Source: Flammeovirga sp. SJP92 (GTDB lineage Bacteria > Bacteroidota > Bacteroidia > Cytophagales > Flammeovirgaceae). From it: a stretch of 64,000 nucleotides of DNA. The stretch is taken from contig NZ_LQAQ01000093.1 of the NCBI RefSeq assembly GCF_001583495.1, positions 682,001 through 746,000 on the forward strand, read 5' to 3'. A model generated the notes under the pieces. It saw nothing but the letters and a program-made list of their open reading frames with translations, was not told the origin of the DNA and did not search any database. Of this stretch, positions 1,767 through 21,672 are shown piece after piece. The number at the start of each line of letters is the position of its first letter. Positions within the stretch are counted from its first letter, which is position 1. Both the position numbers and the translations under genes were made by a program.

Positions 1767-1838
1767 CAAATCTCTTGAAAAATGCTTCCGCATAGGATAG
1801 AGAATTACTAATTATTCCTTTTTAGGTAAAATGCTTAC
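1767..1838 (-). promoter_or_regulatory. 72-bp promoter module (copy 1), for the 980-1738 barrel
   Basis: On the minus strand a TTTG -7 core (complement of 1767-1770) lies 28 bases before the start codon. Its palindrome occupies 1822-1838: left half TTAGGTAA perfect, right half degenerate (12 of 16 positions overall). The distance from palindrome edge to TTTG is 55 bp, as in the other five copies. The ACCTA half-site is degenerate here (ACTAA at 1807). Confidence 0.65.
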
Positions 1839-1863
1839 TACGCTCTTTGTCAGGAAATAGGGC

Positions 1864-1895
1864 ACAAAAAAAGACCTCATATAATGAGATCTTTA
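1864..1895 (-). terminator. intrinsic terminator after the pseudo-receiver gene
   Basis: Stem AAAGA-C-CTCAT / ATGAG-A-TCTTT (10 pairs, one mismatch, 3-base loop) at 1871-1895. On the minus strand it is followed by eight T. It ends the transcript of the two-component operon or of its last gene. Confidence 0.8.
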
Positions 1896-1952
1896 ATAGC
1901 GAAACAAACTACTGACAATAGTCTGCATGCAATGGGAAAATATCAAACAGTA

Positions 1953-2294
1953 TTATACCTCACCAAAAACATCATGGATAGAATCCGTGAAGTCTAAGAT
2001 TGATACATAAGCGTGATATCCTTCCTCCATTAATTTATTGATCATATGATCAACTTGAAAGCAGTGCATTGCCACAATACAATCATTGGGAAACTTTTTC
2101 CTTACAATTCTCAAAACTTCTGCGGAAGAAATACTTACATCCAGGAGATTTACAAAAATATATCCTTCAGATGTCAATTGATCATCTACGATTTCTTCTA
2201 AGTCCACTCTTTTGATGGGTGTCAAGGAATGAATTTGCTCTACAAGTTTATTATTTAGATTATTCTCTTTTCCAATTAATAAATTCATGTCCAT
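1953..2294 (-). CDS. degenerate receiver-like protein
   Basis: 113 residues if it starts at the ATG at 2294 (a second ATG follows at 2288). The longer frame begins at a TTG that is itself part of a -7 element (TAGATTFG-type, TAGATTTG on the minus strand, 2307-2314), so that start is unlikely. Predicted order is beta (MNLLIG), helix, a strand YIFVNLLDVS, helix, strand CIVAMHC, helix, strand HAYVS, like a response-regulator receiver fold. The acidic pocket and phospho-acceptor Asp are not in their normal places. It lies 63 bases downstream of the response regulator at 2358-3017, so it may be an accessory or phosphorylation-independent partner. The fold assignment is inference. Confidence 0.6.
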   Translation of the reverse strand: MDMNLLIGKENNLNNKLVEQIHSLTPIKRVDLEEIVDDQLTSEGYIFVNLLDVSISSAEVLRIVRKKFPNDCIVAMHCFQVDHMINKLMEEGYHAYVSILDFTDSIHDVFGEV

Positions 2295-2306
2295 AGGGTT
2301 TACACA

Positions 2307-2314
2307 CAAATCTA
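2307..2314 (-). promoter_or_regulatory. -7 element TAGATTTG before the pseudo-receiver
   Basis: A perfect TAnnTTTG match on the minus strand. It would place transcription start about 6-12 bases before the ATG at 2294 or 2288, giving a nearly leaderless message. Confidence 0.45.
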
Positions 2315-2357
2315 TTATCTAGTAAGGCTTCGTCTATTAGAGAATTACCTATTTTGA

Positions 2358-3017
2358 TTAAATATCATCAAATAATTCCCTGTCTATGGCATAAAGAATC
2401 AAACCTGCTAAGTTTTTACTACCTGTTTTATCCAGTAAATTACGTTTGTGAGCATCTACAGTTCTTACACTGATGAAAAGTTCTTCAGCGATTTCCTTAT
2501 TCGTTTTTTCTTTTAATATCAGATGGAGCACTTCTGTTTCTCTTTCAGACAATGGTACTTCCAAAGCAACATTTGACTTTTGAGGTTTTACTTTTCTGAT
2601 ATTATTAATGATGGCATTTGTTACTTCAGGAGAATAATAAGTCCCGCCCGAATACACAATTCTGATACCATTGATCAATTCTTGTTCACTACAGTTTTTC
2701 AGTAAATAGCCCATAGCACCCTCGCCCAGCATTTTCTTGATATGTTGACTTTCACCCAACATCGTGAGTGCTATAATTTTTATCGATGGATATTTCTCTT
2801 TTACATTTTGAACCAATTCCAAACCATCCATGACAGGCATATTCACATCTGTCAATAGTATATCAATATCACTATTTTTCTCTAATTGATCCAAACAATC
2901 TTTGCCGTGTTCTGCCTCACCTGTAATCTCAAAATCACTTTCATCCAATAAGAAATTCTTCAAACCTTCACGAATCATTTTATGATCATCCACCAAAAAC
3001 AGTTTAATCTTTCCCAT
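2358..3017 (-). CDS. NarL/FixJ-type response regulator
   Basis: 219 residues. The receiver domain (about 5-122) has acidic residues D10-D11, phospho-acceptor D57 in LLTDVNMP, the conserved T in ALTM, and K in YLLKN. The C-terminal LuxR-type helix-turn-helix (about 150-215) carries LSERETEVLHLI and NKEIAEELFISVRTVDAHK. It starts 7 bases after the stop of the sensor kinase at 3025-6486, so the two form one operon and almost certainly one phosphorelay. Regulators of this family bind short heptamers such as TACYYMT; the palindrome half TTACCTAA shared by six promoters here resembles that, making this protein the first candidate regulator (inference). Confidence 0.95.
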   Translation of the reverse strand: MGKIKLFLVDDHKMIREGLKNFLLDESDFEITGEAEHGKDCLDQLEKNSDIDILLTDVNMPVMDGLELVQNVKEKYPSIKIIALTMLGESQHIKKMLGEGAMGYLLKNCSEQELINGIRIVYSGGTYYSPEVTNAIINNIRKVKPQKSNVALEVPLSERETEVLHLILKEKTNKEIAEELFISVRTVDAHKRNLLDKTGSKNLAGLILYAIDRELFDDI

Positions 3018-3024
3018 TTTATCT

Positions 3025-6000
3025 TTATATATTTTTATTGATTTCTATTAATAATGTTGTTCCTCTCCCCTCTCTACTTTCTATTTCCAAAAAGCCGTCA
3101 ATAGCATCCAATCGGTTTTTCATTCCTTTGAAACCAAGTCCTGAATTTCCTTTCAAAACCTTTGATACATCAAAACCTACACCATTATCTTCTATGGTTA
3201 ACATATAAATATCTTCATAGTTTTTGAGTTGAATATCAACTTTGGTGGCTTTAGAATACTTGAAGATATTATTGACCCCTTCTTGCAATATGCGATACAA
3301 AATCACTTCAATTTGCTGGTTTTTAATTTGATGTCCATCGAAATTATGAAAAAACTGAAACTCAATATCCTCACTGCTTTTATCCGCTTCAGTGATCAAA
3401 CTTTCGAAAGCCGAAATAATACCAAAATCAGTGATCGCCTTAGGCATCAGACTATGAGCCACCGATCTGCTCTCTGTAATTGACTTTTGCAGGTAATCCC
3501 ATCCTGTTTCAAACTTTTCCCAAATGACCGGCGATATATCTTTAAGGTTCTTTTTTACGGATTGAAAGTTCAATGAAGAGATGGTTAGTGTCTGTTGCAA
3601 TCCATCATGAATATCCTTGGAAATTCTACTTCTCTCATTGTTTTCAGTTCGAATAATTGCCTCAATGAGATCTTGTGTTTTCTTCTTCTTTTCCGTGACA
3701 TCAATGTAAGTTCCGACAATACGTTGAGGGTTCCCTTCTTGATCTCTTTCCACAATTTTACACTTCACTAAAATCCAGATCAGCTTACCGTTTTTATGAT
3801 GAAATCTAAACTCTTGATCTTCTATTTCATCAATCAATTTTTGCCTTCTAGGTTCCTCATAAGTGACAATCCACAAGTCTCGATCATCTGGATGTATAAA
3901 GGGTAAAATACCAGTATGAGCATCACAATCTGCAAGTGTGTACCCTAACATTTCGGCAGAAGCATCACTGATTTTCAAGGTATCGTAATACACATTATAA
4001 TCCCAAATACCATCTTTTGTGGCTTCCAAAGCGTATTTCAGTCGTTCTTCACTTTCATACAGATGATCATTGAGTTCTGTAATTTCATGAGTTCTTTCCT
4101 GTACAATATTTTCAAGATTTTCGTTGAGGTGCTTCAATTCTTGTGTACGCTCATTGACCTTTACTTGTAATCTTCTTCTTTGGGCCTTCAGGACTCTTAA
4201 TCTCCATTGGAAAATCAGATAGATCAATAGTCCAAATAAAACGACATAACATGTTTTTGCTAAGGCTGTCTTATACCAAAACTCTTTTTTTACAAAATGA
4301 TAAGGGTTTTGGAGGTAAGTATAGGAGTCATCAGTGTTAAGGATTCGTGCGTTGAAGGTATATTCTCCAGCGGGCAGATTATTATAATAAGCTACCGTTC
4401 TTGTGCCCATTTTCACCCAATCTTTATCGTACCCTTCTATTTTATATTCATAGTTGAATCTTTCTCCTTGAGAAAAATCAAGAGTGGACAAGTAAAACTC
4501 TAATTGATTTAAATCCGCTTCAATTTCTGATGGAAATGTGTTTAATGACTCACCATTAATCGTCATAAGTTGTAAACTCAATACAGGTGGAGAATAATAC
4601 ACATCTCTTGGTCTGAAAAGATAAAGATTGTGTTTTGTCAATAAGTATAGTTCTGATTGATGTTTGACGAATTGTGGAGAGTATCCTAACTCATGAAAGG
4701 CTCCACCTAATAAAACCCATCGGAATTTTTTCCCTAAATTAATTCGATGTCCGTCTTTGTCTGAAATGGGAATGACTTCCTGTAAATAGGGCTGTCTGGA
4801 GTGTGCCACATAAAACCATTTTCCTTGTGAAGGTGACATCGCAATCATCATTGCCTGATTAGCAGGTAGATTGTTACGAGTATCATATTTTACAGCAGTG
4901 CTATCATTTATGATATGTACAATTCCACTTCCATACGTTCCCACCCAAAGCGTAGAATCCTCTTCCAAAGCCAGACTTACCACATATTTTTCTAAGGCAA
5001 AGTCTAATTTACTTAACTTCAAAGAGTCTCCTTCCACACTATAAACACCTAAATTTGTGCTCAACCAATCTTTACCCAACGTACGGTTCAAACCTTCTAT
5101 TTCAAGGAAACTATTTCTGACCTTTATCAAGGTATCTTGCTTTGCAATGTAAAATCCTGTAGGGTCGTTGAGAAGATAATCACCGTTAGAAAGCTGAAAG
5201 AAATCGTATACTTTTCCTTCTTTAAGGTGATGAATAACTTGGTAAATACCATTGATTTTTTGAAGTTCAAATGCTCCTTTGTCGGTGGATAAAAGAAGGT
5301 GATTATTGATAGAGATAGCCGTTTCATAAATTACACTTCCGATATCACCAACGACTTTCAGTTTTTCAATTTGATTATTCTTGAAGGTAAAAAGTCCATT
5401 TTCCCTTGATCCAAAAATAAGCTGTCCGTCTATATCAATAGGTCTTTGAAAAGCAACGTTTTGTGCTTCTTCAGATTTATTCATTTGGTGCAAAGCAGTA
5501 TTGGAAAAGTAGTTCAACCCTGCCATTGTGCCCAGCCAAAGGTTATTGTCTTTATCAAAAAAGATAGAGCGAATAGTACTGTTTGTCAATCCATCATCAT
5601 CATACATAGAAGAAACCTGATCTTTATAAATACGATGGAGACCAACACCGCCTCCCCAAATCGTACTGTCTTCTTGAATAAGTATTTTTCTAACAGGTGA
5701 TTTAGTATTGTTTTTCCCTACCCATTGCTTGATAAAACCTTTCTCTTTAGCGTATAAACATAGCTCACCCCAAAGCCCGCCAATCACATAATTATCACCA
5801 AAATCTTTAATTGAAAAAGCCATCATACCAACAGGATCGTCAAATAATTTATGAGTCTTATTTGTTTTTGGGTCCCATTTATAGAAGATGGATTCATTTT
5901 TAGAAAGGAACGTATGCAGTGTATAGATTTGCCCATCATCAGCAGGAAATATTCTAAAGAGTCGAGGTTTAGGGTAATTGTGTTCTTTCAAGATACTATT

Positions 6001-6486
6001 CTTAATCGAATACACTTTTCCATACCTCACAAACCAAATCACTCCATTTTTATCTTTGAAAAAGTTCATGATACGGCTCAGTTTCTGATGGTCTTGATCA
6101 TAAATTTGAACCGCTTTATTGTCTTCCAAATAAAAAACACCTCTTCGCGTCGCAAACCATAGTTTTCCATCATTATCGAACTCTATATACACAATAGACT
6201 CCGTTTCTATAATAGGATCTGATTTCAGATTGATCACCTTAATCTGCGAACCGTCAAACTTCAAGAGTCCTCTGTCCGATCCAATCCATAAGTAGCCTTT
6301 TGGATCTTGATTGATGGCAAAAACTCTATCGATAGGAGTTTCTAGTATTTCAGTCCATGTTTTTAATTCATATTCATCTAGGGGAATATTTGGATTTAAG
6401 GATTGAGAGAATACTATGCCTGAAAATCCAAGTAATAAAAGGAGCAGTATTTTAGTAGTTTTATATAAATAGTTCAGACAGTACAT
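3025..6486 (-). CDS. propeller-type sensor histidine kinase with PAS domain
   Basis: 1153 residues. Order: signal peptide (about 1-28); two seven-bladed-propeller sets of Reg_prop repeats (about 40-640), with blades such as DPKGYLWIGSDRGLLKFDG; a Y_Y_Y Ig-like domain (about 655-725); one membrane helix (about 745-765); a coiled coil; a PAS domain with PAC motif (about 815-930); HisKA_3 with the acceptor H960 in SKDIHDGLQQ; and a HATPase (DNGVGFD, GLGFKGMKNR). It is therefore a periplasm-sensing kinase of the Bacteroidota hybrid-like family, but without fused receiver or AraC domain; its partner is the separate regulator downstream. The ligand is unknown. Confidence 0.93.
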   Translation of the reverse strand: MYCLNYLYKTTKILLLLLLGFSGIVFSQSLNPNIPLDEYELKTWTEILETPIDRVFAINQDPKGYLWIGSDRGLLKFDGSQIKVINLKSDPIIETESIVYIEFDNDGKLWFATRRGVFYLEDNKAVQIYDQDHQKLSRIMNFFKDKNGVIWFVRYGKVYSIKNSILKEHNYPKPRLFRIFPADDGQIYTLHTFLSKNESIFYKWDPKTNKTHKLFDDPVGMMAFSIKDFGDNYVIGGLWGELCLYAKEKGFIKQWVGKNNTKSPVRKILIQEDSTIWGGGVGLHRIYKDQVSSMYDDDGLTNSTIRSIFFDKDNNLWLGTMAGLNYFSNTALHQMNKSEEAQNVAFQRPIDIDGQLIFGSRENGLFTFKNNQIEKLKVVGDIGSVIYETAISINNHLLLSTDKGAFELQKINGIYQVIHHLKEGKVYDFFQLSNGDYLLNDPTGFYIAKQDTLIKVRNSFLEIEGLNRTLGKDWLSTNLGVYSVEGDSLKLSKLDFALEKYVVSLALEEDSTLWVGTYGSGIVHIINDSTAVKYDTRNNLPANQAMMIAMSPSQGKWFYVAHSRQPYLQEVIPISDKDGHRINLGKKFRWVLLGGAFHELGYSPQFVKHQSELYLLTKHNLYLFRPRDVYYSPPVLSLQLMTINGESLNTFPSEIEADLNQLEFYLSTLDFSQGERFNYEYKIEGYDKDWVKMGTRTVAYYNNLPAGEYTFNARILNTDDSYTYLQNPYHFVKKEFWYKTALAKTCYVVLFGLLIYLIFQWRLRVLKAQRRRLQVKVNERTQELKHLNENLENIVQERTHEITELNDHLYESEERLKYALEATKDGIWDYNVYYDTLKISDASAEMLGYTLADCDAHTGILPFIHPDDRDLWIVTYEEPRRQKLIDEIEDQEFRFHHKNGKLIWILVKCKIVERDQEGNPQRIVGTYIDVTEKKKKTQDLIEAIIRTENNERSRISKDIHDGLQQTLTISSLNFQSVKKNLKDISPVIWEKFETGWDYLQKSITESRSVAHSLMPKAITDFGIISAFESLITEADKSSEDIEFQFFHNFDGHQIKNQQIEVILYRILQEGVNNIFKYSKATKVDIQLKNYEDIYMLTIEDNGVGFDVSKVLKGNSGLGFKGMKNRLDAIDGFLEIESREGRGTTLLIEINKNI

Positions 6487-6508
6487 AGTATAAATAAGAG
6501 GTCTAAAA

Positions 6509-6687: not shown

Positions 6688-7275
6688 TTATACTAACTCC
6701 ATCTTACTAACATCTTTAATAAAATTTTTAGCCTTCTTCAACTTCATCGAAAGCGATACATGATAAACTCCTAAAAGTATACATGTCACACCTGTTAAAG
6801 TGATGATGGTAAAGCCTGCAAAAACAGGATTCCATATTAAGATCAATGAGAAAATCAATCCTACAACTCCTATAAACATTAACGGATCGTGAGAGATCAA
6901 ACCAAATCTTCTCAAGTCTTGTGAAAAGGATATTGTACCTATGGCTCTGATCAAAAACGAAAAGCCTACATACATTGGTAATGTCACAATTGAGATTGCA
7001 GGATTCTTGATCAAGAAGATACCTAAAAGAGTATAGGTAAAACCTAATAACAACTGCCATCCCCAGCCTTTAATTGCTTTACGATTTAATATTGAAAAGG
7101 TAATATCTGAAATACCCATTATGATAAATGTAACACTGAATAAGGTGGATAATGCTACATAACTTTCAATAGGATAAGTGAACGTAAACACGCCTGCAAT
7201 GATAAATAATATGCCTGAAATAAGGGGAAGGTACCAATGCTTAATAGTTCTTTGCAATGAATTTTTAGTTTCCAT
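6688..7275 (-). CDS. HdeD-like DUF308 membrane protein
   Basis: 195 residues with six predicted membrane helices in pairs, matching the DUF308/HdeD layout: for example WYLPLISGILFIIAGVFTF near the start and GWQLLLGFTYTLLGIFLI in the middle. HdeD proteins are linked to acid resistance in enterobacteria; the mechanism is unclear and the role here is not established. It lies 70 bases downstream of the coiled-coil gene at 7346-7807 and has no promoter module of its own, so I read the two as an operon. A CTCTCTC element sits about 10 bases before the start codon. Confidence 0.85.
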   Translation of the reverse strand: METKNSLQRTIKHWYLPLISGILFIIAGVFTFTYPIESYVALSTLFSVTFIIMGISDITFSILNRKAIKGWGWQLLLGFTYTLLGIFLIKNPAISIVTLPMYVGFSFLIRAIGTISFSQDLRRFGLISHDPLMFIGVVGLIFSLILIWNPVFAGFTIITLTGVTCILLGVYHVSLSMKLKKAKNFIKDVSKMELV

Positions 7276-7345
7276 AATTTTTAAAGAGAGAGAAATATTT
7301 ATGCCTACTATTTAGGAGTTCGGCAATTCCTTTTTAAATAATTTT

Positions 7346-7807
7346 TTATCTGATCATTGATGATACTTTGTTATTCATTTTAGAAAGAAACTCCTCTCCT
7401 AATCTGAATGTAGAAGTTAAATATTCTTGAGTATCAACATTAATTTTTTCAATCTGGATCAAGTCTTCTTGGATCATCTCTTCAATCTCATTTTGAAGAA
7501 GATAGATGTCCAATAGGCTTTCCTGAAGTTTTAGTTCTTTCTGACGTTCTGTAAGTACTGTATCTTTCTGTACTTCAGAGATTTTTTGATATCTCATTTT
7601 ATTAAAAACATGACGAGTGATAATTTTTAAAGAGATCTCTTCAACACCTTTGACAATATCAAAGAGTTCATTTTTCACACCGCTTATCACTTCAAATTTC
7701 TCCGCGAAAGTAATTTCATTTTCTAATAAAACGTCGTCTATTCTATTGGGTAAATCCTTGCTATCAAAAGGTAAACTTGAAATCGAATTTTGTATAGAAG
7801 TATTCAT
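7346..7807 (-). CDS. hypothetical helical (coiled-coil) protein
   Basis: 153 residues, no signal peptide or membrane segment, rich in Glu, Lys, Ile and Leu, predicted to be nearly all helical. I do not recognise the family. It is first in a two-gene unit with the HdeD-like gene. Its promoter module at 7843-7914 is one of the best copies (palindrome 15 of 16), and a CTCTC element lies 16-20 bases before the start codon. By context it belongs to the envelope/stress regulon; a cytoplasmic structural or regulatory role is a guess. Confidence 0.7.
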   Translation of the reverse strand: MNTSIQNSISSLPFDSKDLPNRIDDVLLENEITFAEKFEVISGVKNELFDIVKGVEEISLKIITRHVFNKMRYQKISEVQKDTVLTERQKELKLQESLLDIYLLQNEIEEMIQEDLIQIEKINVDTQEYLTSTFRLGEEFLSKMNNKVSSMIR

Positions 7808-7842
7808 ATCTGTATTGATTTAAGAGAGTTATTACTACTATA

Positions 7843-7914
7843 CAAAGGTGGAGAAATAAGGGCTTTTCTATATTGCAGGCTTACCTAATTACCGTATTTA
7901 GGTAAATTACCTAT
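7843..7914 (-). promoter_or_regulatory. 72-bp promoter module (copy 2), for 7346-7807 and HdeD-like gene
   Basis: Minus strand: -7 element CACCTTTG (complement of 7843-7850), 35 bases before the start codon. Half-site ACCTA at 7883-7887. Palindrome TTAGGTAA-A-TTACCTAT at 7898-7914 (15 of 16). Edge-to-TTTG spacing is 55 bp. No good -33 TTG is present, which fits an activator-dependent promoter. Confidence 0.75.
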
Positions 7915-8180: not shown

Positions 8181-8288
8181 CTACCTTTCTATAATTATTA
8201 CTACTGTCTCTGTTTGATGATGTACTTTGCTGACTTTAGTGATAAAAATGATCACTGCCAAAAGCAATATAAATGTTACTATTTTCAT
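8181..8288 (-). CDS. 35-residue single-helix membrane peptide
   Basis: A short gene: ATG complementary to 8286-8288, stop at 8181. The peptide starts MKIVTFILLLAVIIFITK, one membrane helix, then a polar stretch with VHHQTET and a hydrophobic end VVIIIER. Support comes from context: a promoter module with the same 55-bp spacing as five other copies lies upstream (8362-8433), a CTCTC element sits 6 bases before the ATG, and a strong terminator follows. The leader also holds a 7-bp inverted repeat (8319-8325/8351-8357). Function unknown; small membrane peptides often modulate a larger membrane protein, but nothing here shows a partner. Confidence 0.6.
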   Translation of the reverse strand: MKIVTFILLLAVIIFITKVSKVHHQTETVVIIIER

Positions 8289-8361
8289 GATCTTGAGAGC
8301 GTTTTCTTTACTTCTATTGTACCAGGATTATGTCCCCACATATTCCATCACTGGTACATTA

Positions 8362-8433
8362 CAAAGTTCCTTCTTTTATACCTCAACTCTTTTAGCTGAT
8401 TACCTAAATTAGCGTACTAGGTGTTTTACTTAG
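8362..8433 (-). promoter_or_regulatory. 72-bp promoter module (copy 3), for the 35-residue peptide
   Basis: Minus strand TTTG (complement of 8362-8365) followed by GTAAT, as in copies 4 and 5. A perfect ACCTA half-site lies at 8402-8406, exactly in register. The palindrome at 8417-8433 is degenerate (CTAGGTGT-T-TTACTTAG, 11 of 16) and runs into the last codons of the M48 gene. Spacing is again 55 bp. Confidence 0.6.
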
Positions 8434-9886
8434 AGAGGGTTATCTCATGGTCAATTTCCACTTCTGTAAAATATGGGAAGGCGTTGACTACCTTAATCCA
8501 CTCTCCATACTCCAACCTATCATTCGGTTTCTTATCATTCAAAACACTAATCAACTCAAGATTTCCTTTGTTGTCACTTCTGTTGCAAAGCTGTTTTAAC
8601 GTTTCACCTTTTCTAGCTTGAACTGCTACTATTTTATGCGTATGAATTTCTTTCAAATCCTTTTTCTCCAAAGGTTTTAAAGACGTAGCCACCTGTTCGA
8701 ATGCTATATCCTTAGGCTTATTAGTGAAGCTTGTTACTTTATAGACATAATTGTGAATCTTTACCCAGCCAATATTAGCGTACTTCTTTTCATTTTTCAG
8801 TTCTCCTTCAAATGTCATTAAGTAGCCTTCACTTTCTCCATTGGAGAAGTACCCTTTAGAAGTCATCGCATTTTTTTCTTTCTCCGATAACTCCTCCATA
8901 AACGCAAGGGCCGACTCCATTATATCTTTATCTTTTTCAATCGTTATGATAATGCCTTCCTTACCATTGGTACTATAACCACCTACAAAGTCAGGCTGAT
9001 TAACCAAGTTCCATTTTTCTGGGAAAGTCACCTTAAAATCAAAGACGGGGTGCATAAAAGTCTGACCTTCGAAAGTGCCTTTATAAACACTTTCACCGAA
9101 AAGCAGACCGTCTATTCTAGTCTGATAATTCTTCGTTAAACGTGCTGATGGCGCCTTTTCCATAAAAGTGGATTGAAGATCAATCGCATTGATTCTGTCT
9201 GGAGTATAAGGATGGTCATTAAAGTAACTTTTCTGTTCCGTTTCTCCGGTTACTAATTCAATGGAAGTTGACATTCTATGCAAAATATCTTTTAAGGCTG
9301 ATGGCTTGTACCCCGATTTAGCGGCAAGTTCCATACCTTCCAAGTCGGCTTCTGTTTCGTTTTTTCTACCATGAGAAGCCATATATAAAGCATTGGTTGA
9401 TTTGATCGGAGCATTGAAAATCGTCTCTAAGTCCTTACTTAAGATACCTAAGAGATTTCCAGGTACTTCCAGCAATCGAGGTAAAATTCCTTTTTTAAAC
9501 TGAGAAACTGTATGTCTGTTATGAGAATGAATAATTTCATGTGAAATAATACAGGCCAACTCATCCTCAGTCTGAATGATGGGCAACAAGCCAGTGGTGA
9601 TAAAAATATAGCCTCCCGGCAATGCGAAGGCATTCGGTTCAATATTTTCAACAATAAAAAACTGATAATCGAATTTCTTTTCTTCTAAATTTCCTACCAG
9701 TTTTTGTCCTACACTGTCCACATAAGCGGTTAATGCATGATCTTGATAAACACCCATGTCTTTGATAACACTTTGAGCATATTCATGCCCTACGGCTTTA
9801 TCAATTTCTATGCTTTGTGCATAACTGATATTTTGGAAAAACAGTACTGTAATAATGATCGATAGAAAGGCAGATAGATTTTTCAT
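8426..9886 (-). CDS. M48-family metalloprotease with LysM-like C-terminal domain
   Basis: 486 residues. Signal peptide about 1-23. The peptidase domain (about 30-225) carries the zinc motif HEIIH at 116-120 and the third-ligand motif ETEAD near 179, as in BepA/LoiP-type periplasmic proteases. A middle region (about 250-395) is like the stress-related domain often attached in this group, and the last 60 residues (VQARKGETLKQLC to GEWIKVV) resemble the LysM-like tail of such proteases. Likely role: quality control of envelope proteins. It is a single gene with its own promoter module and CTCTC leader. Whether it is anchored at either membrane is not visible. Confidence 0.9.
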   Translation of the reverse strand: MKNLSAFLSIIITVLFFQNISYAQSIEIDKAVGHEYAQSVIKDMGVYQDHALTAYVDSVGQKLVGNLEEKKFDYQFFIVENIEPNAFALPGGYIFITTGLLPIIQTEDELACIISHEIIHSHNRHTVSQFKKGILPRLLEVPGNLLGILSKDLETIFNAPIKSTNALYMASHGRKNETEADLEGMELAAKSGYKPSALKDILHRMSTSIELVTGETEQKSYFNDHPYTPDRINAIDLQSTFMEKAPSARLTKNYQTRIDGLLFGESVYKGTFEGQTFMHPVFDFKVTFPEKWNLVNQPDFVGGYSTNGKEGIIITIEKDKDIMESALAFMEELSEKEKNAMTSKGYFSNGESEGYLMTFEGELKNEKKYANIGWVKIHNYVYKVTSFTNKPKDIAFEQVATSLKPLEKKDLKEIHTHKIVAVQARKGETLKQLCNRSDNKGNLELISVLNDKKPNDRLEYGEWIKVVNAFPYFTEVEIDHEITLSK

Positions 9887-9944
9887 GATGATTTGTAATT
9901 TCTGAGAGATAATTTTTGTAGATCAGTAGTGATTGATCTTATTA

Positions 9945-10016
9945 CAAATCAACTGAATTTTGAAGGTGATTATGTGAGAAGAAAACCTAGAGTGAGAGAT
10001 TAGGTAAATTGCCTAA
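9945..10016 (-). promoter_or_regulatory. 72-bp promoter module (copy 4), for the M48 protease
   Basis: Minus strand TTGATTTG (complement of 9945-9952), then GTAAT. Half-site in GAAAACCTA at 9981-9989, the same 9-mer and register as copy 5. Palindrome TTAGGTAA-A-TTGCCTAA at 10000-10016 (15 of 16). Spacing 55 bp; the start codon is 58 bases downstream of the TTTG. The palindrome overlaps the stop codon of the upstream gene. Confidence 0.78.
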
Positions 10017-10537
10017 AACGCCTTTCCAATACCTACACTCAAAGAAAAAGTATCATATCCTTCTTTTATATCATAGAAAAGACCTACCGGAATAGACCAG
10101 TGTTTTCCTATCTCGAAATTATACTCTGTCCCTAATCTGAAAACACCTAGATTATGATGTTTTTCTAATTCTATTCCACCTCCTCCAAATACATTCCAGT
10201 GAGGAGTAATAGAATAAGCCAGCACACCTGCCACAACAAAAGCATGGTCCCTGACTAAATCATCTTTGTGAGGAATAATATAACGTCCTAATTCAAAATC
10301 AAGCATCACGCCCACTTCCAGTTTCGGTTTCACTCTGTAGAGATAATCAAAGCCAATACCTGGCACAAAATGACCTTTATGGTTCAGGTTATCCATATTG
10401 GCTCCTTTTGGAATAAAAGTTTGAGCAATAGTAATGGAGATAAATTGTTTCTTGTCATGACCTGCTTCTTCAGGATGCTGTGCAAATACAGATAAACAAG
10501 TCAGGCATGTGATAAAGAAAAGGGCTAGCTTTTTCAT
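10013..10537 (-). CDS. small outer-membrane beta-barrel protein
   Basis: 174 residues. Signal peptide about 1-19 (VFA-Q). The rest is a short eight-strand-like barrel with paired strands such as YRVKPKLEVGVMLDFELGR and HWSIPVGLFYDIKEGYDTF, and a terminal aromatic residue. Several His and acidic residues follow the signal peptide (HPEEAGHDKK). Family not recognised beyond OmpA-like small barrels. A CTCTC element lies 7 bases before the start, but no copy of the 72-bp promoter module is present upstream. Confidence 0.7.
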   Translation of the reverse strand: MKKLALFFITCLTCLSVFAQHPEEAGHDKKQFISITIAQTFIPKGANMDNLNHKGHFVPGIGFDYLYRVKPKLEVGVMLDFELGRYIIPHKDDLVRDHAFVVAGVLAYSITPHWNVFGGGGIELEKHHNLGVFRLGTEYNFEIGKHWSIPVGLFYDIKEGYDTFSLSVGIGKAF

Positions 10538-10651
10538 AATGATTGAGAGATTGATTTTTATTTGGTTTTATACTTTAAAAAAGGTGTTTTGCAACGCAAT
10601 ACGCATCTCAAAACAACATCAATAGTTGAGTAATTTCGGTCTATTTTTAAT

Positions 10652-10711: not shown

Positions 10712-12187
10712 CTACTCAACCCAAGATGCGGCCGCTTGTCTTGGTGGGAATTCTTTGAATGTTCCCATATATTCTTTTACTCTTTCAACTGTTGGTGACA
10801 TCAAGAACATGTGTTCGATAAAGAAGTCCATGTATCCTGCTTCATCAATTGCTCTTTCAAATGGATCTCTTCTTAAGTTGATGATCAATGGAGCTCTCAA
10901 CTTAGTAAAAGGTTTGATCCATACATCCAATCCTTCGTGTTCTTGGATAGAGAACATAAATTTCCAATCTCCAATTCTCACTGCGGATAAATCACCACCG
11001 TCTGTGAAGTAGAAGAAATCTTCTCTTGGACCTTTCGCTTCTTTACCTAAGAAATAAGGCATGAAGTTGTAACCGTCCAAGTGTACTTTATAAGTCATGT
11101 CACCAGCTTTGTGACCTTTTAATAATTTTTCTTTGATTTGATCATCACCTGCTGCCGCTACTAAAGTAGGCATCCAGTCTTCTAATGAAATGATTTCGTT
11201 AGATACTTGAGGAGCGATCGTACCAGGCCAGCTCACCATCATTGGGGCTCTGAATCCACCTTCCCAAGTTGTGTTTTTCTCCCCACGGAAAGGAATCATA
11301 CCACCGTCAGGCCATGACAGCACCTCTGCACCGTTATCTGTAGTATAAACTACGATTGTATTTTCAGTAATTCCCAGCTCATCTAATTTATTCAATAACT
11401 GACCAACGTGACCGTCGTGTTCTACCATACCGTCAGCATAAATACCTTGGCCTGTTTTGCCATCTGCTTCTTCTGTAAGGTGCGTCACTACGTGCATTCT
11501 TGTAGAGTTGAACCATACAAAGAAAGGCTCTTTTTCATCATGTGCTCTATCGATAAAATCTAATGAAGCAGCAAGGAATTCTCTATCCACAGTTTCCATT
11601 CTTTTCTTTGTCAATGGACCTGTATCAGAGATACGACCATCAGCATAAGAGTGGATAACTCCTCTTGGACCAAATCTTTCTTTGAAAGCGGGATCTTTTG
11701 GATAATCTGGGTGTTCTGGCTCCTCTTCCGCATTTAAGTGGTAAAGGTTACCAAAGAATTCATCAAAACCGTGATTTGTTGGAAGGAATTCGTCTTTATC
11801 ACCTAAGTGGTTTTTACCGAACTGACCAGTAGCGTATCCCATATCTTTAAGGATTTCTGCGATTGTTGGATCCTCCTTTTGGATGCCTAAATCATCACCT
11901 GGTAAACCAACTTTAGAAAGACCTGTTCTTTTAGCACTTTGACCAGTAACGAAAACTGATCGGCCTGCAGTACAGCTATTTTGTGCGTAACTGTCGGTAA
12001 ATCGGATACCTGTATTGGCTATTCTATCAATATTTGGAGTTCTATAGCCCATCATGCCGTCATTGTAAGCACTGATGTTATACATTCCGATATCGTCACC
12101 AAAAATTACTAAGATATTCGGCTTCTTCTGTGCCATTAACTGAGTGGAGAACAGTAGTACAATGACAAATAATGATAATTGTTTCAT
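10712..12187 (-). CDS. secreted sulfatase (arylsulfatase-like)
   Basis: 491 residues. Signal peptide about 1-19. Metal-binding D31-D32 in FGDDIG, and the formylglycine signature SCTAGR with C72, which a sulfatase-maturing enzyme must oxidise. Further conserved parts are GKNHLG, the TDNGAE metal site and an RxGDWKFMFS-like C-terminal segment. Such enzymes remove sulfate esters from small molecules, lipids or polysaccharides; the substrate cannot be read from sequence. Unlike most Bacteroidota polysaccharide sulfatases, no SusC/SusD or glycoside hydrolase genes are adjacent. No maturase (anSME) gene lies in the window. It is a single gene under a perfect promoter-module palindrome. Confidence 0.92.
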   Translation of the reverse strand: MKQLSLFVIVLLFSTQLMAQKKPNILVIFGDDIGMYNISAYNDGMMGYRTPNIDRIANTGIRFTDSYAQNSCTAGRSVFVTGQSAKRTGLSKVGLPGDDLGIQKEDPTIAEILKDMGYATGQFGKNHLGDKDEFLPTNHGFDEFFGNLYHLNAEEEPEHPDYPKDPAFKERFGPRGVIHSYADGRISDTGPLTKKRMETVDREFLAASLDFIDRAHDEKEPFFVWFNSTRMHVVTHLTEEADGKTGQGIYADGMVEHDGHVGQLLNKLDELGITENTIVVYTTDNGAEVLSWPDGGMIPFRGEKNTTWEGGFRAPMMVSWPGTIAPQVSNEIISLEDWMPTLVAAAGDDQIKEKLLKGHKAGDMTYKVHLDGYNFMPYFLGKEAKGPREDFFYFTDGGDLSAVRIGDWKFMFSIQEHEGLDVWIKPFTKLRAPLIINLRRDPFERAIDEAGYMDFFIEHMFLMSPTVERVKEYMGTFKEFPPRQAAASWVE

Positions 12188-12244
12188 GCGTTTCTATGTT
12201 AGAGAGAACTTTTAATAATTGTTTTATGATCGTTGATCACATTA

Positions 12245-12316
12245 CAAAGGTGCATGATTGTTACTCCCTATAAGTGAGCAGAAAACCTATTCGAAAAGTT
12301 TAGGTAATTTACCTAA
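12245..12316 (-). promoter_or_regulatory. 72-bp promoter module (copy 5), for the sulfatase
   Basis: Minus strand CACCTTTG (complement of 12245-12252), followed by GTAAT. Half-site in GAAAACCTA at 12281-12289. Perfect palindrome TTAGGTAA-T-TTACCTAA at 12300-12316. Spacing 55 bp; leader about 50 bases with a CTCTC element 14 bases before the ATG. Confidence 0.82.
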
Positions 12317-16614: not shown

Positions 16615-16626
16615 AATTTTAAATAT

Positions 16627-16889: not shown

Positions 16890-16940
16890 TTTTCTTTTTG
16901 TTTAAATGTTTTCGATTTTGTTTTCATTATTATTACACGA

Positions 16941-16948
16941 CAAAGGTG
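16941..16948 (-). promoter_or_regulatory. -7 element CACCTTTG of the micro-ORF operon
   Basis: Minus-strand CACCTTTG, the same form as at 7843 and 12245. It lies 52 bases before the first micro-ORF start. Confidence 0.65.
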
Positions 16949-16964
16949 TAGGAAAGTTTCGAAT

Positions 16965-17037
16965 TAATAAAGTGTGTTTATACAATTAAAAGCTATATAA
17001 ACGAAATATTAATAATGCTCATTTACACACTTTATTA
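16965..17037. promoter_or_regulatory. 13-bp inverted repeat upstream of the micro-ORF promoter
   Basis: Perfect arms TAATAAAGTGTGT (16965-16977) and ACACACTTTATTA (17025-17037) with a 47-base spacer. The near arm covers the -33 region of the micro-ORF promoter, so it may be an operator bound by a dimer or by two dimers. Confidence 0.55.
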
Positions 17038-17221
17038 TATTTTATTTCGATATTTAAATTTATAAAAGGAAAAAGAAATAGAAGTGTACACGCATCATTT
17101 ATAGAATTGATGCAAGTGTCTGACTGTACACTTAATCGAAATTTTCAATGTTAATAAATTGTTAATGTTTTAATTTCTAGAATTTCCAATAAAATTTCTT
17201 CAAAAATGTAACTCTTTGTAA

Positions 17222-18703
17222 TTAAGTGACTTTTAGACGCTTTTTTACATGATGTGAATCTTGATAAGCTAAAATGTTTTTGGCCATGCCTGGAAAGACA
17301 AACATGTGTAATGGAAATACTAAGTACCAATACAATCTGCCCCAAACTCCCAAAGGCCTGAAAGTCGCTTTTTGTTCCAACCATTGTTTTCCGTCTTTGT
17401 TCTTCACTCTAAATTCCAGCCAAGCCTCACCCGGCAATTTCATCTCTGCAAACAACAATAGTCTTTGATGCTTTTTATCTGCTAAGATCACTCTCCAAAA
17501 GTCCAATGCTTCACCTGTTTTCAAATCGTATTGGCTTCTTCTTCCTCTTCTTAATCCAACACCTCCTACCATTTTATCCATAAAGCCACGAATTTTCCAA
17601 AGCCATGTACCATAATACCACCCTCTTTCACCACCAATAGCCCATACATTATCCAATACTTCATCAACAGGACGTTCAATTGGGTATTTCCTAAAATCCA
17701 CAAAACAGCCATATTTAGGTACTTGAATCATATCCAAGAAATCTTCACGTACTGGACCAATAATAGATTCTTTCCAACTTGATACTACTTCATTTTGAGC
17801 AATTTTCTGGAAAGCGCTTTCTAATGCTTCCTCATAAGTTAAGAGCTTTACAGGAACGATTTTTTGAATCTCACTATCATTACAGATCACTTCATTACCC
17901 ATGCTTTCTACTAAACTCCTTGCTAGAGAATAAGTCGTGGATGTCACGAAATACAACCAATAAGAAGACAGATTAGGTGTAAAGACAGGAACTACGAGAA
18001 TCCGTCTTTGTAATCCTCTTACTTTCGCAAACTGCAAAAGCATGTCCTTGTAATTCAATACATCTTTACCACCAATATCAAATACTTTATTATAGGCTTC
18101 TTCTTTTAGCATCACTCCCATTAAATAATCCATCACATTACGAATCGCTATGGGTTGGCATTTGGTCAAAAGCCATTTTGGGGCCACCATCACAGGCAAT
18201 TTTTCCACTAAATCTCTAATGATCTCAAAAGAAGCTCCACCTGAACCAATAATTATCGCTGCTCTTAATACCGTCAATGCACTACCGGATTCACCTAATA
18301 TATGCTCTACTTCTACTCTTGATTGAAGATGTCTTGATAACTTTGAACAATTGGCTATTCCTCCCAAATAAATAATTTGCTGACATTCTGTTGTCTTGAT
18401 AAAATCTCTAAAGTTAATCGCTGCTGTTTTCTCCATTTTCTCAAAATCAGCAAAAGAGTTACTCATGGAGTGCACCAAGTAATAGGCTACATCAAAATCT
18501 TTCGGAATATTTTCTAAGGAATCTGCATTAAGTAAATCACCTTTCACCACTGTCACCGAATCCAAGAAAGAATAATCGAAGTCTTCAAAATCAAACCGCC
18601 TCGGGTCTCTACACACACAAATAACTTCATGCCCTGCCTCTACTAATAAAGGCAACAAACGTCTTCCTATATATCCTGTTGATCCGGTAAGTAATATTTT
18701 CAT
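17222..18703 (-). CDS. SDR-type NAD(P)-binding protein with DUF2867 domain
   Basis: 493 residues from the ATG at 18703; the longer frame adds nine residues before the Rossmann start MKILLTGSTGYIGRRLL, so the inner ATG is preferred. N-terminal atypical short-chain dehydrogenase domain (about 1-290, GSTGYIG loop and YYLVHSM motif), then a DUF2867 domain (about 320-480, with GERGWYYGTWLWKIRGFMDK). Such fusion proteins are common in Bacteroidota and cyanobacteria; their substrate is not known. A hydrophobic segment (YWYLVFPLHMFVFPGM) near the C-terminus may touch the membrane. Confidence 0.88.
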   Translation of the reverse strand: MKILLTGSTGYIGRRLLPLLVEAGHEVICVCRDPRRFDFEDFDYSFLDSVTVVKGDLLNADSLENIPKDFDVAYYLVHSMSNSFADFEKMEKTAAINFRDFIKTTECQQIIYLGGIANCSKLSRHLQSRVEVEHILGESGSALTVLRAAIIIGSGGASFEIIRDLVEKLPVMVAPKWLLTKCQPIAIRNVMDYLMGVMLKEEAYNKVFDIGGKDVLNYKDMLLQFAKVRGLQRRILVVPVFTPNLSSYWLYFVTSTTYSLARSLVESMGNEVICNDSEIQKIVPVKLLTYEEALESAFQKIAQNEVVSSWKESIIGPVREDFLDMIQVPKYGCFVDFRKYPIERPVDEVLDNVWAIGGERGWYYGTWLWKIRGFMDKMVGGVGLRRGRRSQYDLKTGEALDFWRVILADKKHQRLLLFAEMKLPGEAWLEFRVKNKDGKQWLEQKATFRPLGVWGRLYWYLVFPLHMFVFPGMAKNILAYQDSHHVKKRLKVT

Positions 18704-18791
18704 GTCTATTGTGATTGGGTTGTACAACAATAAACAAGCTTAGTGAGTAATTTGTTGTCAAACACTCTATTTATTATGAAACTTATTCATT

Positions 18792-19646
18792 TTAATCTAT
18801 TTTATCCTCTAACACCCAATTAATCAAATAATTATGATCTAATATACTCCAAGAATGAGGATGTCGGGCTCCATTTTTTCTGAATCCTTTATCAATCGTT
18901 TTTTGAAAATCAACTTTTGCTTTTTGTGTCCTTAAGTATTCATCAAATAATGTAAGTGTATGGAAGTTTGTTTCTTCTAAAACTACTCCACGGTTTTCTT
19001 TCCACCACAATGGAGCGTATTCACTTATCAATAAAAATTTAGTATTTGAGATCAATGATTTAGAAAGCTTCGATTCTTTATTATTCTGGTTAAAGTAATT
19101 ATAATTATTGATCGTAATCTGACTTAAAATGGAATTAATGTACCTAGCTTCATTTACAGCGACTTTTGAAAAGTTCTGACGTATTTTCGTTTCATTTACT
19201 TTGTATAGGTTTTTTAAATCAAGAGGCGCATCAACAATAAAACACCCTTCAATTGAAACCATATTTGCTCTCTGCAAATAATCACTAACTATTAAAGCTA
19301 CATTTCCACCACTCGAAAAGCCCCCAATAAAAGCTTTATGATCAGTAAACTTATCTTGTATTAAACTGGAAATTCTTTTCCCCAGTGCTCTTTTTTCTTC
19401 TTCCTCCAAAAAAAGCCTTCGATTAAAACCTATATAAACAATTGATATATGATTGGCAATTGCTTTTCCATGAATATTCAAATGTTGTTCTATATGTTCA
19501 ATAGATTCTCCAAAACCTGGAAAAATAAAAAGGACATTATTGCTATTTTCAGCTTCATAAATTCTGACTTGTATATCATTTGAAACCACTTGAGCATAAC
19601 AATTGAAAATTAGAAAGAAAAAGAAAAGCGTTATATATTTTTTCAT
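18792..19646 (-). CDS. secreted alpha/beta-hydrolase-like protein
   Basis: 284 residues. Signal peptide about 1-19 (NCYA-Q). An FPGFGE loop follows a strand, then the nucleophile elbow GGFSSGG (Ser in G-F-S-S-G), and a late His in HPHSWSILDHNY that could complete the triad. This fits a periplasmic esterase or peptidase-like hydrolase of the esterase D type, but sequence likeness is weak. It lies 87 bases downstream of the metallo-hydrolase gene on the same strand, so the two may be co-transcribed. Both are more AT-rich than their surroundings, a possible sign of recent gain. Confidence 0.7.
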   Translation of the reverse strand: MKKYITLFFFFLIFNCYAQVVSNDIQVRIYEAENSNNVLFIFPGFGESIEHIEQHLNIHGKAIANHISIVYIGFNRRLFLEEEEKRALGKRISSLIQDKFTDHKAFIGGFSSGGNVALIVSDYLQRANMVSIEGCFIVDAPLDLKNLYKVNETKIRQNFSKVAVNEARYINSILSQITINNYNYFNQNNKESKLSKSLISNTKFLLISEYAPLWWKENRGVVLEETNFHTLTLFDEYLRTQKAKVDFQKTIDKGFRKNGARHPHSWSILDHNYLINWVLEDKID

Positions 19647-19733
19647 TGTTGTTGATGTTGAAGTCTAATTAAAAAACTAGAGCACAAATATTTGTAGAAG
19701 TGAGATTGTTAAGGAGACTAAGGCGATACTATT

Positions 19734-21137
19734 TTAGTTCTCAATTTTTTGCTTAACTGCTTTTTCAAAAGCTGAGTAATCACCAAACTTTTGCTGTCCG
19801 GTTAATGGCCAATTTGTATAGATTTTTTCTACAACTACTTTTGATGCAAGGATTGCTTCATAGAGACCTATTCCTCTCTTTCCTATTGTTAAGTTCTTTT
19901 CTTCAGGAAAAAGAATTAAATCTGCTACTATCACACTTTTTTCTTCCTCTAAATAAAAAATTAAGAACTCTTCTGTATGGCTTGTCTTTGCCCCTATTTC
20001 TTGGCATTTAATACCAAATAATTGCTGTATTTTACCTTCCTTCACTATTAAATATTGATCATAGCTTCCATTAGGTATAAATGGCTTTTCTAAACCAATT
20101 GAATGTTTATTTTTAGCTAGCTTCTTAAAGTACTCTACATTTTTACTCGTCGTTACAATAGGAATGTCATCTTCAACATAAGCCAGTACACCACCTGCAT
20201 GATCAGGGTGATGGTGAGAAATAAAGCACGCCTCTATCGGTAATTCAAACTTCGTTTTTATTGCTCTTATTAGTTTTCTATTGATAGATAACTCAACGGG
20301 AGCTTCAAATAATAATAGTTTGTCATAATTTTTATATAAGTAAGTTTTTACATTAAAGGCAGGTAGTTCAATTTGCCAAAAATCTTCAGTGATTTGATTA
20401 AATACAAAGTCATTTTGAATCTTTATTTCCAATTGAGTCAATACCTCATTTTCTAATCTGTCACTATATGAGTAGTGCTCTACCTCACTTACTCTCAACA
20501 ATAATTCATTTTCTCTATATTCTAATTGAAAAGGTAAAAGTTGATTTTTTACTTTCCTATAATCAGAAAATGAAATGCTCTTTTTTGAATCACCATATAC
20601 ATTATCATAGTAATAGTAAAAAATCTCATCAACTAAGTTTTCTTTATTGATATGAAAAAAATATTCAATCCCATTACTGATAAATGAAAAAATATCCTTT
20701 CCTTTTTTATTTATACAACATTGATTTCTATCTATTGCTTTCAAGAAAAGATAGATATTGCTGAAATACACTAATTGGTCCTCTAAAGAGGAAGCTTTTA
20801 CATCAACACTACCAAACTTTTTCACTATCTTTTTCTGCTGATGAGTATACGAATATTGATAAAAGTTATTTCCATTATACTCATAAATAACCTTCGAAAA
20901 GATCTTACCTTCAGAATAACGTGTTTCAGTATCAAACAGCAAAATTTTATATTCTTCAGGTTTTGAATAATGCCCAAACTGATGGATTGTTTCTCTACTT
21001 TTTACATGATATGAAATAGTACCATCCTGATAATTCATTTTTTTCAATAATACATCTATTTCAGGTAAGTCCGTTGAGTATACATTATTGATACAATAGA
21101 AAAATAAAAGAACTGAATTTAATAATGTCTTAGTCAT
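19734..21137 (-). CDS. secreted metallo-beta-lactamase-fold hydrolase
   Basis: 467 residues. Signal peptide about 1-20. A long N-terminal region (about 25-240) of unknown fold is followed by a metallo-beta-lactamase-fold domain with SHHHPDH at 307-313, the two-metal motif, and later conserved His (SHTEEF) and Asp (VIVADLILF). Bacteroidota carry similar two-part proteins of unknown substrate. Together with 18792-19646 it makes a two-gene AT-rich block between the DUF2867 gene and the Bat operon. Confident for the fold, not for the function. Confidence 0.8.
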   Translation of the reverse strand: MTKTLLNSVLLFFYCINNVYSTDLPEIDVLLKKMNYQDGTISYHVKSRETIHQFGHYSKPEEYKILLFDTETRYSEGKIFSKVIYEYNGNNFYQYSYTHQQKKIVKKFGSVDVKASSLEDQLVYFSNIYLFLKAIDRNQCCINKKGKDIFSFISNGIEYFFHINKENLVDEIFYYYYDNVYGDSKKSISFSDYRKVKNQLLPFQLEYRENELLLRVSEVEHYSYSDRLENEVLTQLEIKIQNDFVFNQITEDFWQIELPAFNVKTYLYKNYDKLLLFEAPVELSINRKLIRAIKTKFELPIEACFISHHHPDHAGGVLAYVEDDIPIVTTSKNVEYFKKLAKNKHSIGLEKPFIPNGSYDQYLIVKEGKIQQLFGIKCQEIGAKTSHTEEFLIFYLEEEKSVIVADLILFPEEKNLTIGKRGIGLYEAILASKVVVEKIYTNWPLTGQQKFGDYSAFEKAVKQKIEN

Positions 21138-21600
21138 TGAATTAAAAATTTATAGCATGTAAAACATACTCTATGTTTGAGTGATTGAAGTTGATATAGT
21201 TATTTTCTTAAAGTTTGAAATGTAATAATTACTTCCAGCTGTCTCTAATAGAAAAATAGTTATCTATACATATGATTATCAAATATTAATCAATTCATTT
21301 TACTCTTGATATTTTTAACCCTATTTAACATAAAAATAAGTATTACATATTAATTTAATAAGTATGTGGCTCAAAATAGAAAACAACTTATCTATTCATT
21401 GACAGATAGTCATGTATATTCCAAAAGTACAGGGCTTGAAAATAAGGCAAGAACATTAAACCCAATAAGTTTTTCTACTGTAAGTCTTATCAACTATAAA
21501 ATTCATATTTGAAAAAAAGCAGAATAAGAGCCACAATTTCTTTGGGACAGAAACTTAATTTTAGTAATAAATCATTAACTTCTAGTCATATAGAAAGCGG
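21138..21600. other. AT-rich intergenic region before the Bat operon promoter
   Basis: About 460 bases between divergent transcripts. No ORF with support and no repeat found. It should contain the promoter of the metallo-hydrolase gene on the minus strand; no clear element was chosen. Confidence 0.4.
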
Positions 21601-21672
21601 ATAGGTAAAATGCCTAACCATTAAAAATGAGAATTTTACTAATCTAAACCCCTTCTATTTCTAATAAATTTG
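21601..21672 (+). promoter_or_regulatory. 72-bp promoter module (copy 6), for the MoxR-Bat operon
   Basis: Mirror-image copy on the plus strand. Palindrome ATAGGTAA-A-ATGCCTAA at 21601-21617 (13 of 16) and a perfect -7 element TAAATTTG at 21665-21672. The palindrome edge to the last base of TTTG is 55 bp, as in the five minus-strand copies. The extra half-site is poor here. Confidence 0.65.

Follow-up and report, generated by a model that had tools for sequence, protein, structure and literature searches.

Six promoters in a 64,000-nucleotide stretch of the Flammeovirga sp. SJP92 genome (contig NZ_LQAQ01000093.1, positions 682,001 to 746,000; hereafter the window) share a 72-bp module, in which a distal palindromic operator is followed by a second, proximal operator and by the TTTG of a -7 box. 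Judging from the sequence, it is very probable that these modules act as activator-dependent promoters under a NarL/FixJ-type response regulator, the one whose gene lies at 2358-3017 of the window. The modules, a seventh site beyond the six of an earlier note on this DNA, and the regulator gene are as follows.

1767-1838, minus strand: module c1, distal palindrome 12/16, proximal operator and -7 TTTG, upstream of the barrel gene and also found before its orthologue in 6 other Flammeovirga genomes
7843-7914, minus strand: module c2, distal palindrome 15/16
8362-8433, minus strand: module c3, distal palindrome 11/16, good proximal half
9945-10016, minus strand: module c4, distal palindrome 15/16
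12245-12316, minus strand: module c5, distal palindrome 16/16, matched exactly nowhere else in the genome
21601-21672, plus strand: module c6, distal palindrome 13/16, weak proximal half
2305-2361, minus strand: seventh site, proximal operator and -7 box without distal palindrome, directly behind the regulator gene
2358-3017, minus strand: NarL/FixJ-type response regulator, recognition helix RTVDAHKRN

All six modules of the earlier note were read in the sequence where it had placed them, and its palindrome scores of 16, 15, 15, 13, 12 and 11 of 16 were reproduced. In each of them a palindrome close to TTAGGTAA-N-TTACCTAA is accompanied by TTTG at offset 68, which leaves 51 bp between the two, or the 55 bp originally reported if the TTTG itself is counted. 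Among the 98 oriented palindromes of the window scoring at least 11/16, this offset has 6 TTTG matches, where the 113 offsets considered average 0.78 and the next best has 3, and among those scoring at least 13/16 it carries TTTG in 4 of 10. The sequence TAGGTAANTTACCTA with up to three mismatches furthermore occurs 16 times in the window and 4.2 times in shuffles, none of 100 shuffles reaching 16, and the three best matches to the full palindrome in the whole 8.49-Mb genome (0, 1 and 1 mismatches) all lie inside the window. The genome-wide search proposed in the earlier note gave a divided answer, since the loose palindrome pattern is not far from random, as detailed below, whereas the full module is so by R1, a sequence-only model made from 26 aligned exact-spacing Flammeovirga modules after three matches judged to be chance had been dropped. 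All six modules are found by R1 with E-values of 1.2e-15 to 7.5e-10 for the whole genome, the six being themselves part of its training set. A second model, R2, had regulator-adjacent modules in part of its training set, and the E-values of both models are rough.

Across the 26 modules two palindromic operators are seen, a distal one, TTAGGTAAWTTACCTAA, and 26 bp further on a proximal one of about TTAGGTWWYYCTAYA. The ACCTA reported earlier at a constant offset in four copies forms the edge of the second, proximal operator. Within the TAnnTTTG box the A is kept in 24 of the 26 modules and the T in only 5. An excerpt of PMC9723704 places this box at -12 to -5 in Flavobacterium psychrophilum, and the centre of the distal operator would therefore lie near -68 and that of the proximal operator near -42. 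The same excerpt gives TAnnTTTG as the -7 box of the -33/-7 promoters of Bacteroidota sigma-A, from which the present promoters differ in that no -33 TTG is obvious by eye in the six window modules and that the proximal operator takes its place. That the TTTG could itself be a -33 box is excluded, since the start codon after c1 begins 28 nt downstream of it and hence before the transcript would start, and duplicated promoter DNA was likewise rejected, as the flanks of the copies look unrelated by eye.

Spacing was compared in a selection of 32 modules, taken from Flammeovirga and further genera: the distance from the first T of TAGG in the proximal operator to the first T of TTTG is 41 bp in 31 cases and 42 bp in one, whereas the distance between the two operators is 26 bp (n=19), 25 bp (n=7), 22 bp (n=5) or 23 bp (n=1). 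These 32 are what remains of 35 chosen modules after setting aside those of G016 (TTTA for TTTG) and L144 (no clear -7 box) and the proximal-only site, which was counted apart; outside the 35 are the C19 site and its orthologues, L129 and G156, all without TTTG, further sites of genome G215, and most Flammeovirga orthologues, in which the spacing is fixed by their selection. It should also be mentioned that the module-finding models were trained on fixed spacing and so disfavour other spacings. In the promoter of the seventh site, which has the proximal operator only, the distance from TAGGT to TTTG is 41 bp in all 8 of 8 Flammeovirga genomes, while that from the regulator stop codon to the operator ranges from 2 to 31 nt. 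The constancy of the proximal distance, together with the sliding position of the distal operator, indicates that the proximal operator is the promoter-bound element and the striking palindrome an accessory. The earlier view of the palindrome as the fixed element is thus not borne out: the proximal operator is fixed, and the operator-to-operator spacing is lineage-specific. It is also because of this variation that most of the distant modules escaped a rigid position-weight scan. An operator fixed just upstream of the -7/-10 box (41 bp in 31/32 and 8/8) combined with a poor -33/-35 element is what is expected of class II activator-dependent promoters.

The arrangement is conserved within the genus. 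Seven of the eight other Flammeovirga genomes encode an orthologue of the window regulator with 84-98% identity, the target genes are conserved nearby up to the contig ends, and the spaced module, which the earlier note had suggested looking for upstream of orthologous genes, was found in all seven. Modules of the same spacing precede orthologues of the barrel, 153-aa, 35-aa, M48, sulfatase and MoxR genes, though not every gene in every genome. In the own genome R1 retrieves, besides the six modules, the sites C42:108448, C19:210156 and 2305-2361 (E 0.0085), with background from E 0.058; the C42 site lies upstream of a DUF1269 protein and is also an R1 training sequence, and the C19 site has TTTA for TTTG and precedes a small gene. 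The sole Flammeovirga genome without an orthologous regulator is G007, where the genome scans show only a decayed module (L221; E 0.046 with R1, 9.1e-4 with R2) before a MoxR orthologue of 91% identity, perhaps a relic left after loss of the regulator. A directed look at G007 gave one more module (13.3 bits), directly behind a regulator of the type encoded on contig C15 of the own genome. The scans of the order used stricter filters and miss weak sites such as this one and the own-genome C15 module. The latter is located at C15:333509-333576 (L128:7510-7577) and has an operator spacing of 22 bp, as by eye has its counterpart in G007.

The regulator at 2358-3017 had been put forward as the first candidate because of its position within the group, and this proposal is supported by the finding that the module tracks a regulator subfamily, defined by its DNA-contact helix, into other genera and families. 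The test comprised 109 regulators, from which the window regulator itself and its orthologues in the genus had been removed, as had partial matches, exact duplicates and most of the loci retrieved because of a module site. It used a hidden Markov model (HMM) of the 26 Flammeovirga modules only, with a threshold of 8 bits that was read from the table. A module occurs within 1 kb downstream of 16 of the 29 regulators with a TVD[A/S]HKRN helix (11.5 to 37 bits), whereas none of the 80 other regulators reaches 8 bits there (best 6.8), including the 17 with TVE.HKRN, which are 46-57% identical to the query and have a module in 0/17 cases. None of 327 shuffles contained a module (best 5.4 bits), nor did any upstream kilobase. 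Fisher's test gives p 1.1e-11 for the linkage and 6.8e-5 against the TVE type alone, or 2.7e-9 and 4.7e-4 when five orthologues of one paralogue are collapsed (12/25), but these values are optimistic since the rows are related and most of the loci were already in view when the pattern was noticed. One further TVD regulator with an adjacent module was found on recheck, in G007. Collectively this suggests, as far as sequence comparison can tell, that a single residue of the recognition helix, D or E, separates two specificities.

The linkage is furthermore seen among the paralogues of the own genome, in that the C15 paralogue, with helix TVDAHKRN and only 45% identity, has a module next to it (15.1 bits with the Flammeovirga HMM, 34.8 bits with R2), whereas those with TVEAHKRN, TIEAHKRN and TVETHKRN, at 53-57% identity, reach at most 5.7 bits with the former. 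R1 matches are likewise found close behind regulator homologues in two other genera of the family (G017, G016), beside the roughly 45%-identity paralogue in the Flammeovirga genomes G003, G004 and G010 and, among 80 regulator loci from named genomes, within 0.6 kb behind the regulator in metagenome-assembled genomes (MAGs) of Cyclobacteriaceae, Saprospiraceae, Flavobacteriales and Crocinitomicaceae, the Crocinitomicaceae regulator reading in two frames. In the order, of which 242 genomes were scanned, modules at E<=1e-4 occur in 14 of the 25 genomes that encode a regulator homologue at E<=1e-50 and in 0/217 of the others; without the 11 training genomes the figures are 3/14 and 0/217 (Fisher 1.8e-4), and at E<=1e-3 they are 5/14 and 3/217. 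The weak matches in G084, G230 and G234 (E 2.4e-4 to 5.1e-4), where close homologues of the regulator are lacking (35-37% at best, or no match at 1e-25), are probably background.

Several observations nevertheless weigh against control by the window regulator. Thirteen of the 29 TVD[AS]HK regulators lack a module within 1 kb, although three of them have one elsewhere (Reichenbachiella before a kinase gene, G206 and G013 elsewhere in the genome); the helix pattern was spotted and scored in mostly the same loci, with rows related by descent; and among regulators added after the pattern had been seen, the module accompanies 1/3 of the TVD type and 0/13 of the others. In an unfiltered R1 scan the C15 locus, at 12.4 bits, is not separated from those of two TVE/TIE paralogues (13.4 and 12.6), and R2 gives weak matches near TVE/TIE-type regulators (L210 19.3, L288 19.5 and L211 16.2 bits). 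G156, one of the 3/14 genomes above, has a TVE-type regulator as its nearest and its match on another contig, with TTTA. The spacing too has exceptions, since the one module with 42 bp comes from Crocinitomicaceae and 1 bp extra precedes TTTG in c3 of G009 and in c6 of G006, while TTTG is absent at some sites (C19 and its orthologues, L129, G016, G156). Finally, on the genome-wide scale the full palindrome at up to three mismatches is commoner in the reversed control (172 vs 73 per strand), and the loose palindrome combined with TTTG is near random (21+20 vs 16+11 in the control), so that weak copies rest on the whole module, its conservation and the models.

The C15 paralogue has a recognition helix identical to that of the window regulator and a module beside it, and could therefore bind the same sites. 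That it, or both regulators together, rather than mainly the window regulator occupies the modules is nonetheless unlikely, since C15-type modules have 22 bp between the operators (5/5) and window modules 26, and since 7 of the 10 own-genome sites found lie no more than 20 kb from the window regulator. This notion is also in poor agreement with the state of G007, which keeps a C15-type regulator (TVDAHKRN, 83% identity to the C15 protein of the own genome) with its adjacent module and lacks the window regulator, and in which the genome scans detect no window-type module save the decayed one before MoxR. A metal repressor of the DtxR/IdeR/MntR type must also be considered, since the DtxR box is a similar AT-rich palindrome with TTAGG and CCTAA ends, the half-site strings also retrieve papers on DtxR, and the genome has a DtxR-family gene (C90:276808). 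The DtxR box however has 9 bp between TTAGG and CCTAA where the module has 7, and the module differs further by its tandem operator and its fixed distance to the promoter, the latter being more in keeping with activation than with repression. No likely metal transporter is seen among the targets identified in the own genome, and the module tracks the helix of the regulator while the DtxR-family gene is on another contig; on these grounds of geometry, targets and linkage we rejected this explanation, which has very little probability left. The fixed spacing to the promoter box would equally be expected if the modules were promoters of an alternative sigma factor or copies of a mobile promoter element, but this is made highly improbable by the facts that the -7 box is of the ordinary TAnnTTTG type with palindromic operators roughly 35-75 bp upstream, that the flanks of the copies are by eye unrelated, and that the spacing between operators varies by lineage.

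The regulator has the domains to be expected of a DNA-binding response regulator, its receiver domain (PF00072) scoring 96.5 bits against a cut-off of 30.2 and its GerE DNA-binding domain (PF00196) 62.8 against 23.5, and it adjoins a likely partner kinase with a HisKA_3 domain (PF07730, 36.3 bits vs 24). Homologues are numerous in the own genome (58 matches at E<=0.001, some perhaps receiver-only). Two neighbouring genes complete the locus.

3025-6486, minus strand: sensor histidine kinase with Reg_prop, Y_Y_Y, PAS, HisKA_3 and HATPase_c
1953-2294, minus strand: degenerate receiver-like protein of 113 aa, directly behind the regulator gene

If the window regulator indeed controls the modules, the kinase would, on receiving its stimulus, phosphorylate the neighbouring regulator, a dimer of which would bind the degenerate proximal palindrome near -42, beside the -7 box and where a -33 element would otherwise sit, and recruit RNA polymerase in a class II-like manner, while occupancy would be raised by another dimer, bound to the strong palindrome near -68. 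It should be added that regulator and kinase are adjacent in the window and in G005, and that in six of the seven relatives with an orthologous regulator (L066, L067, L068, L070, L072, L074) 2.7-8.9 kb of other sequence parts the regulator from the kinase orthologue, a further kinase-like match adjoining the regulator in two of these six. The protein at 1953-2294 has no Pfam family match, but an AlphaFold (AF2) model that takes in four remote homologues (predicted local distance difference test, pLDDT, 84.6; predicted template modelling score, pTM, 0.79) has 40 receiver-domain matches in the PDB at E<=0.001 by Foldseek (best 9.9e-5, with a template modelling score by query of 0.57-0.77 among the matches listed). 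Three of the four homologues match PF00072, below its cut-off, and at the position of the phospho-accepting D there is by eye an N in 1953-2294 and two homologues, an E in one and a D in one. These homologues are found behind the regulator in two Saprospiraceae, a Flavobacteriales and a Crocinitomicaceae MAG. As a degenerate receiver gene behind the regulator with the proximal operator only, 1953-2294 may, as a guess, be a feedback part of the system. Autoregulation of the kinase and regulator through c2 is doubtful, since by eye the HdeD-like gene has a hairpin and a run of T behind it.

By sequence, the regulator is closest among solved structures to LiaR and VraR (5hev, titled LiaR of Enterococcus faecium, 7ve6 and 4gvp), and the system also resembles LiaRS and VraSR in its HisKA_3-type kinase and plausible envelope targets. 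The kinase however fails the NCBIfam LiaS cut-off (73.9 bits vs 450) and has a Reg_prop/Y_Y_Y sensor, and no LiaF is named among the neighbouring proteins in general family scans, no search having been aimed at LiaF. The operator likewise differs from any LiaR or VraR box that we are aware of. NarL of Escherichia coli has the same receiver and GerE architecture, and its profile matches the regulator with 122.7 bits (cut-off 250), but the DNA-contacting K-V...K of NarL is D-A...R here, and the NarL 7-2-7 site carries TACC to the left and GGTA to the right, where the module has GGTA left and TACC right. The resemblance to NarL heptamers invoked in the earlier note is thus of the opposite orientation, and the argument is not needed. 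To our knowledge, there are few Bacteroidota NarL-type regulators with known sites. FimS/FimR of Porphyromonas gingivalis is a two-component system of this phylum with a LuxR-type regulator and different targets. An excerpt of PMC5431200 describes lower fimA and mfa1 expression in fimR and fimS mutants. String matches in an excerpt of PMC12118408 are inverted repeats of phase-variable promoters and not this module. A two-component regulon with class II-like activation, as the present one appears to be, would be of a known kind, but the operator, the specificity-linked helix and the promoter geometry were not found described in the open-licence literature searched, as far as its excerpts go. 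The architecture would account for promoters without a -33 box, and one regulator subfamily would be paired through its recognition helix with a probable operator in Flammeovirgaceae, Cyclobacteriaceae, Saprospiraceae, Crocinitomicaceae and other Bacteroidota.

The genes following the modules in the window are listed below; the name barrel is a label of the earlier note, and the names MoxR and Bat for 21798-22772 and 22784-23716 are likewise taken from it and putative.

980-1738, minus strand: 252-aa barrel protein, first gene after c1, no Pfam or NCBIfam match
6688-7275, minus strand: HdeD-like DUF308 membrane protein, second gene after c2, below the cut-off of the NCBIfam HdeD model
7346-7807, minus strand: 153-aa protein of no assigned family, first gene after c2
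8181-8288, minus strand: 35-aa hydrophobic peptide after c3, with orthologues of 74-91% identity in three other genomes
8426-9886, minus strand: M48 metalloprotease, below the cut-off of the NCBIfam BepA model
10013-10537, minus strand: 174-aa second barrel, PF13557 just over its cut-off
10712-12187, minus strand: sulfatase
21798-22772, plus strand: MoxR-type ATPase, first gene after c6
22784-23716: Bat-operon-like gene after the MoxR-type ATPase

The gene assignments of the earlier note were refined for two copies, c2 being followed by the 153-aa gene first and the HdeD-like gene second, and c3 preceding the 35-aa peptide, whose gene is followed by a terminator-like hairpin at 8115-8097. The second barrel has no module directly upstream, and a terminator-like hairpin lies between it and the sulfatase gene. 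Elsewhere in the genus, a DUF1269 protein (PF06897), a phospholipase A1 (PF02253) and, by eye, a second sulfatase-like and a second 153-aa-like protein are encoded behind or near sites. The products (barrel-like, DUF308/HdeD-like, 35-aa membrane peptide, M48, sulfatase, MoxR-Bat and DUF1269) and the closest solved relatives of the regulator, LiaR and VraR, point to a role of the regulon in an envelope or stress response, and a set of uncharacterised surface and stress genes would thereby become directly testable.

The pairing would also make regulons predictable in other genomes, and two cases are worth mentioning. In two Cyclobacteriaceae MAGs (L132:10657-10732, L142:5430-5504) the module behind the regulator is followed by a sigma-70 gene with regions 1.2, 2, 3 and 4, and the two-component system is there apparently aimed at a housekeeping-type sigma factor. 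In G215 (L271-L274) several modules precede a SiaC-family gene (PF09345, shown for L272) or look-alikes, with near-identical copies on different contigs.

The regulon is possibly marked a second time, by a short CTCTC element close to the start codons of its genes, although the idea that this element constitutes a second, post-transcriptional layer co-evolving with the two-component regulon is a tentative one that we hold to be somewhat less probable than its opposite. If true, it would place such a layer in a phylum where this kind of control is little understood; its agent could, most boldly, be a small RNA with a GAGAG seed or an RNA-binding protein or, most plainly, the element could be a translation signal without Shine-Dalgarno sequence. 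No small-RNA candidate was seen by eye in a GAGAGA scan of the window. The elements of the window, all on the minus strand and 8-22 nt before start codons, are these.

1742-1746, minus strand: CTCTC, 8 nt before the start codon of the barrel gene
7286-7292, minus strand: two overlapping CTCTC, before the HdeD-like gene
7824-7828, minus strand: CTCTC, before the 153-aa gene
8295-8299, minus strand: CTCTC, before the 35-aa gene
9904-9908, minus strand: CTCTC, before the M48 gene
10545-10549, minus strand: CTCTC, before the second barrel
12202-12206, minus strand: CTCTC, before the sulfatase gene

Within 60 nt upstream, CTCTC is found at 7 of the 53 window open reading frames of at least 100 aa, namely 6/8 regulon genes and 1/45 others (p 8e-6), the eight being a choice (barrel, receiver-like, HdeD-like, 153-aa, M48, second barrel, sulfatase and MoxR) that counts the later Bat-operon genes, which lack CTCTC, among the others; the 35-aa gene, which has the element, is too short for this count. 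Within 30 nt of the first ATG at other Flammeovirga loci it precedes 15/24 regulon orthologues and 2/140 other genes, the six gene types having been picked from the window and one of the two non-regulon carriers being the G004 kinase gene. A strict CTCTC pattern gave 2 matches genome-wide against 0 in the control and is too strict to judge by. The element is absent before the kinase, regulator and receiver-like genes of the window, and it is present before the HdeD-like gene and the second barrel, neither of which has a module directly upstream. Most copies lie 8-26 nt from the start codon, at varying distances from TTTG, and the element often takes the form AATCTCTCAA.

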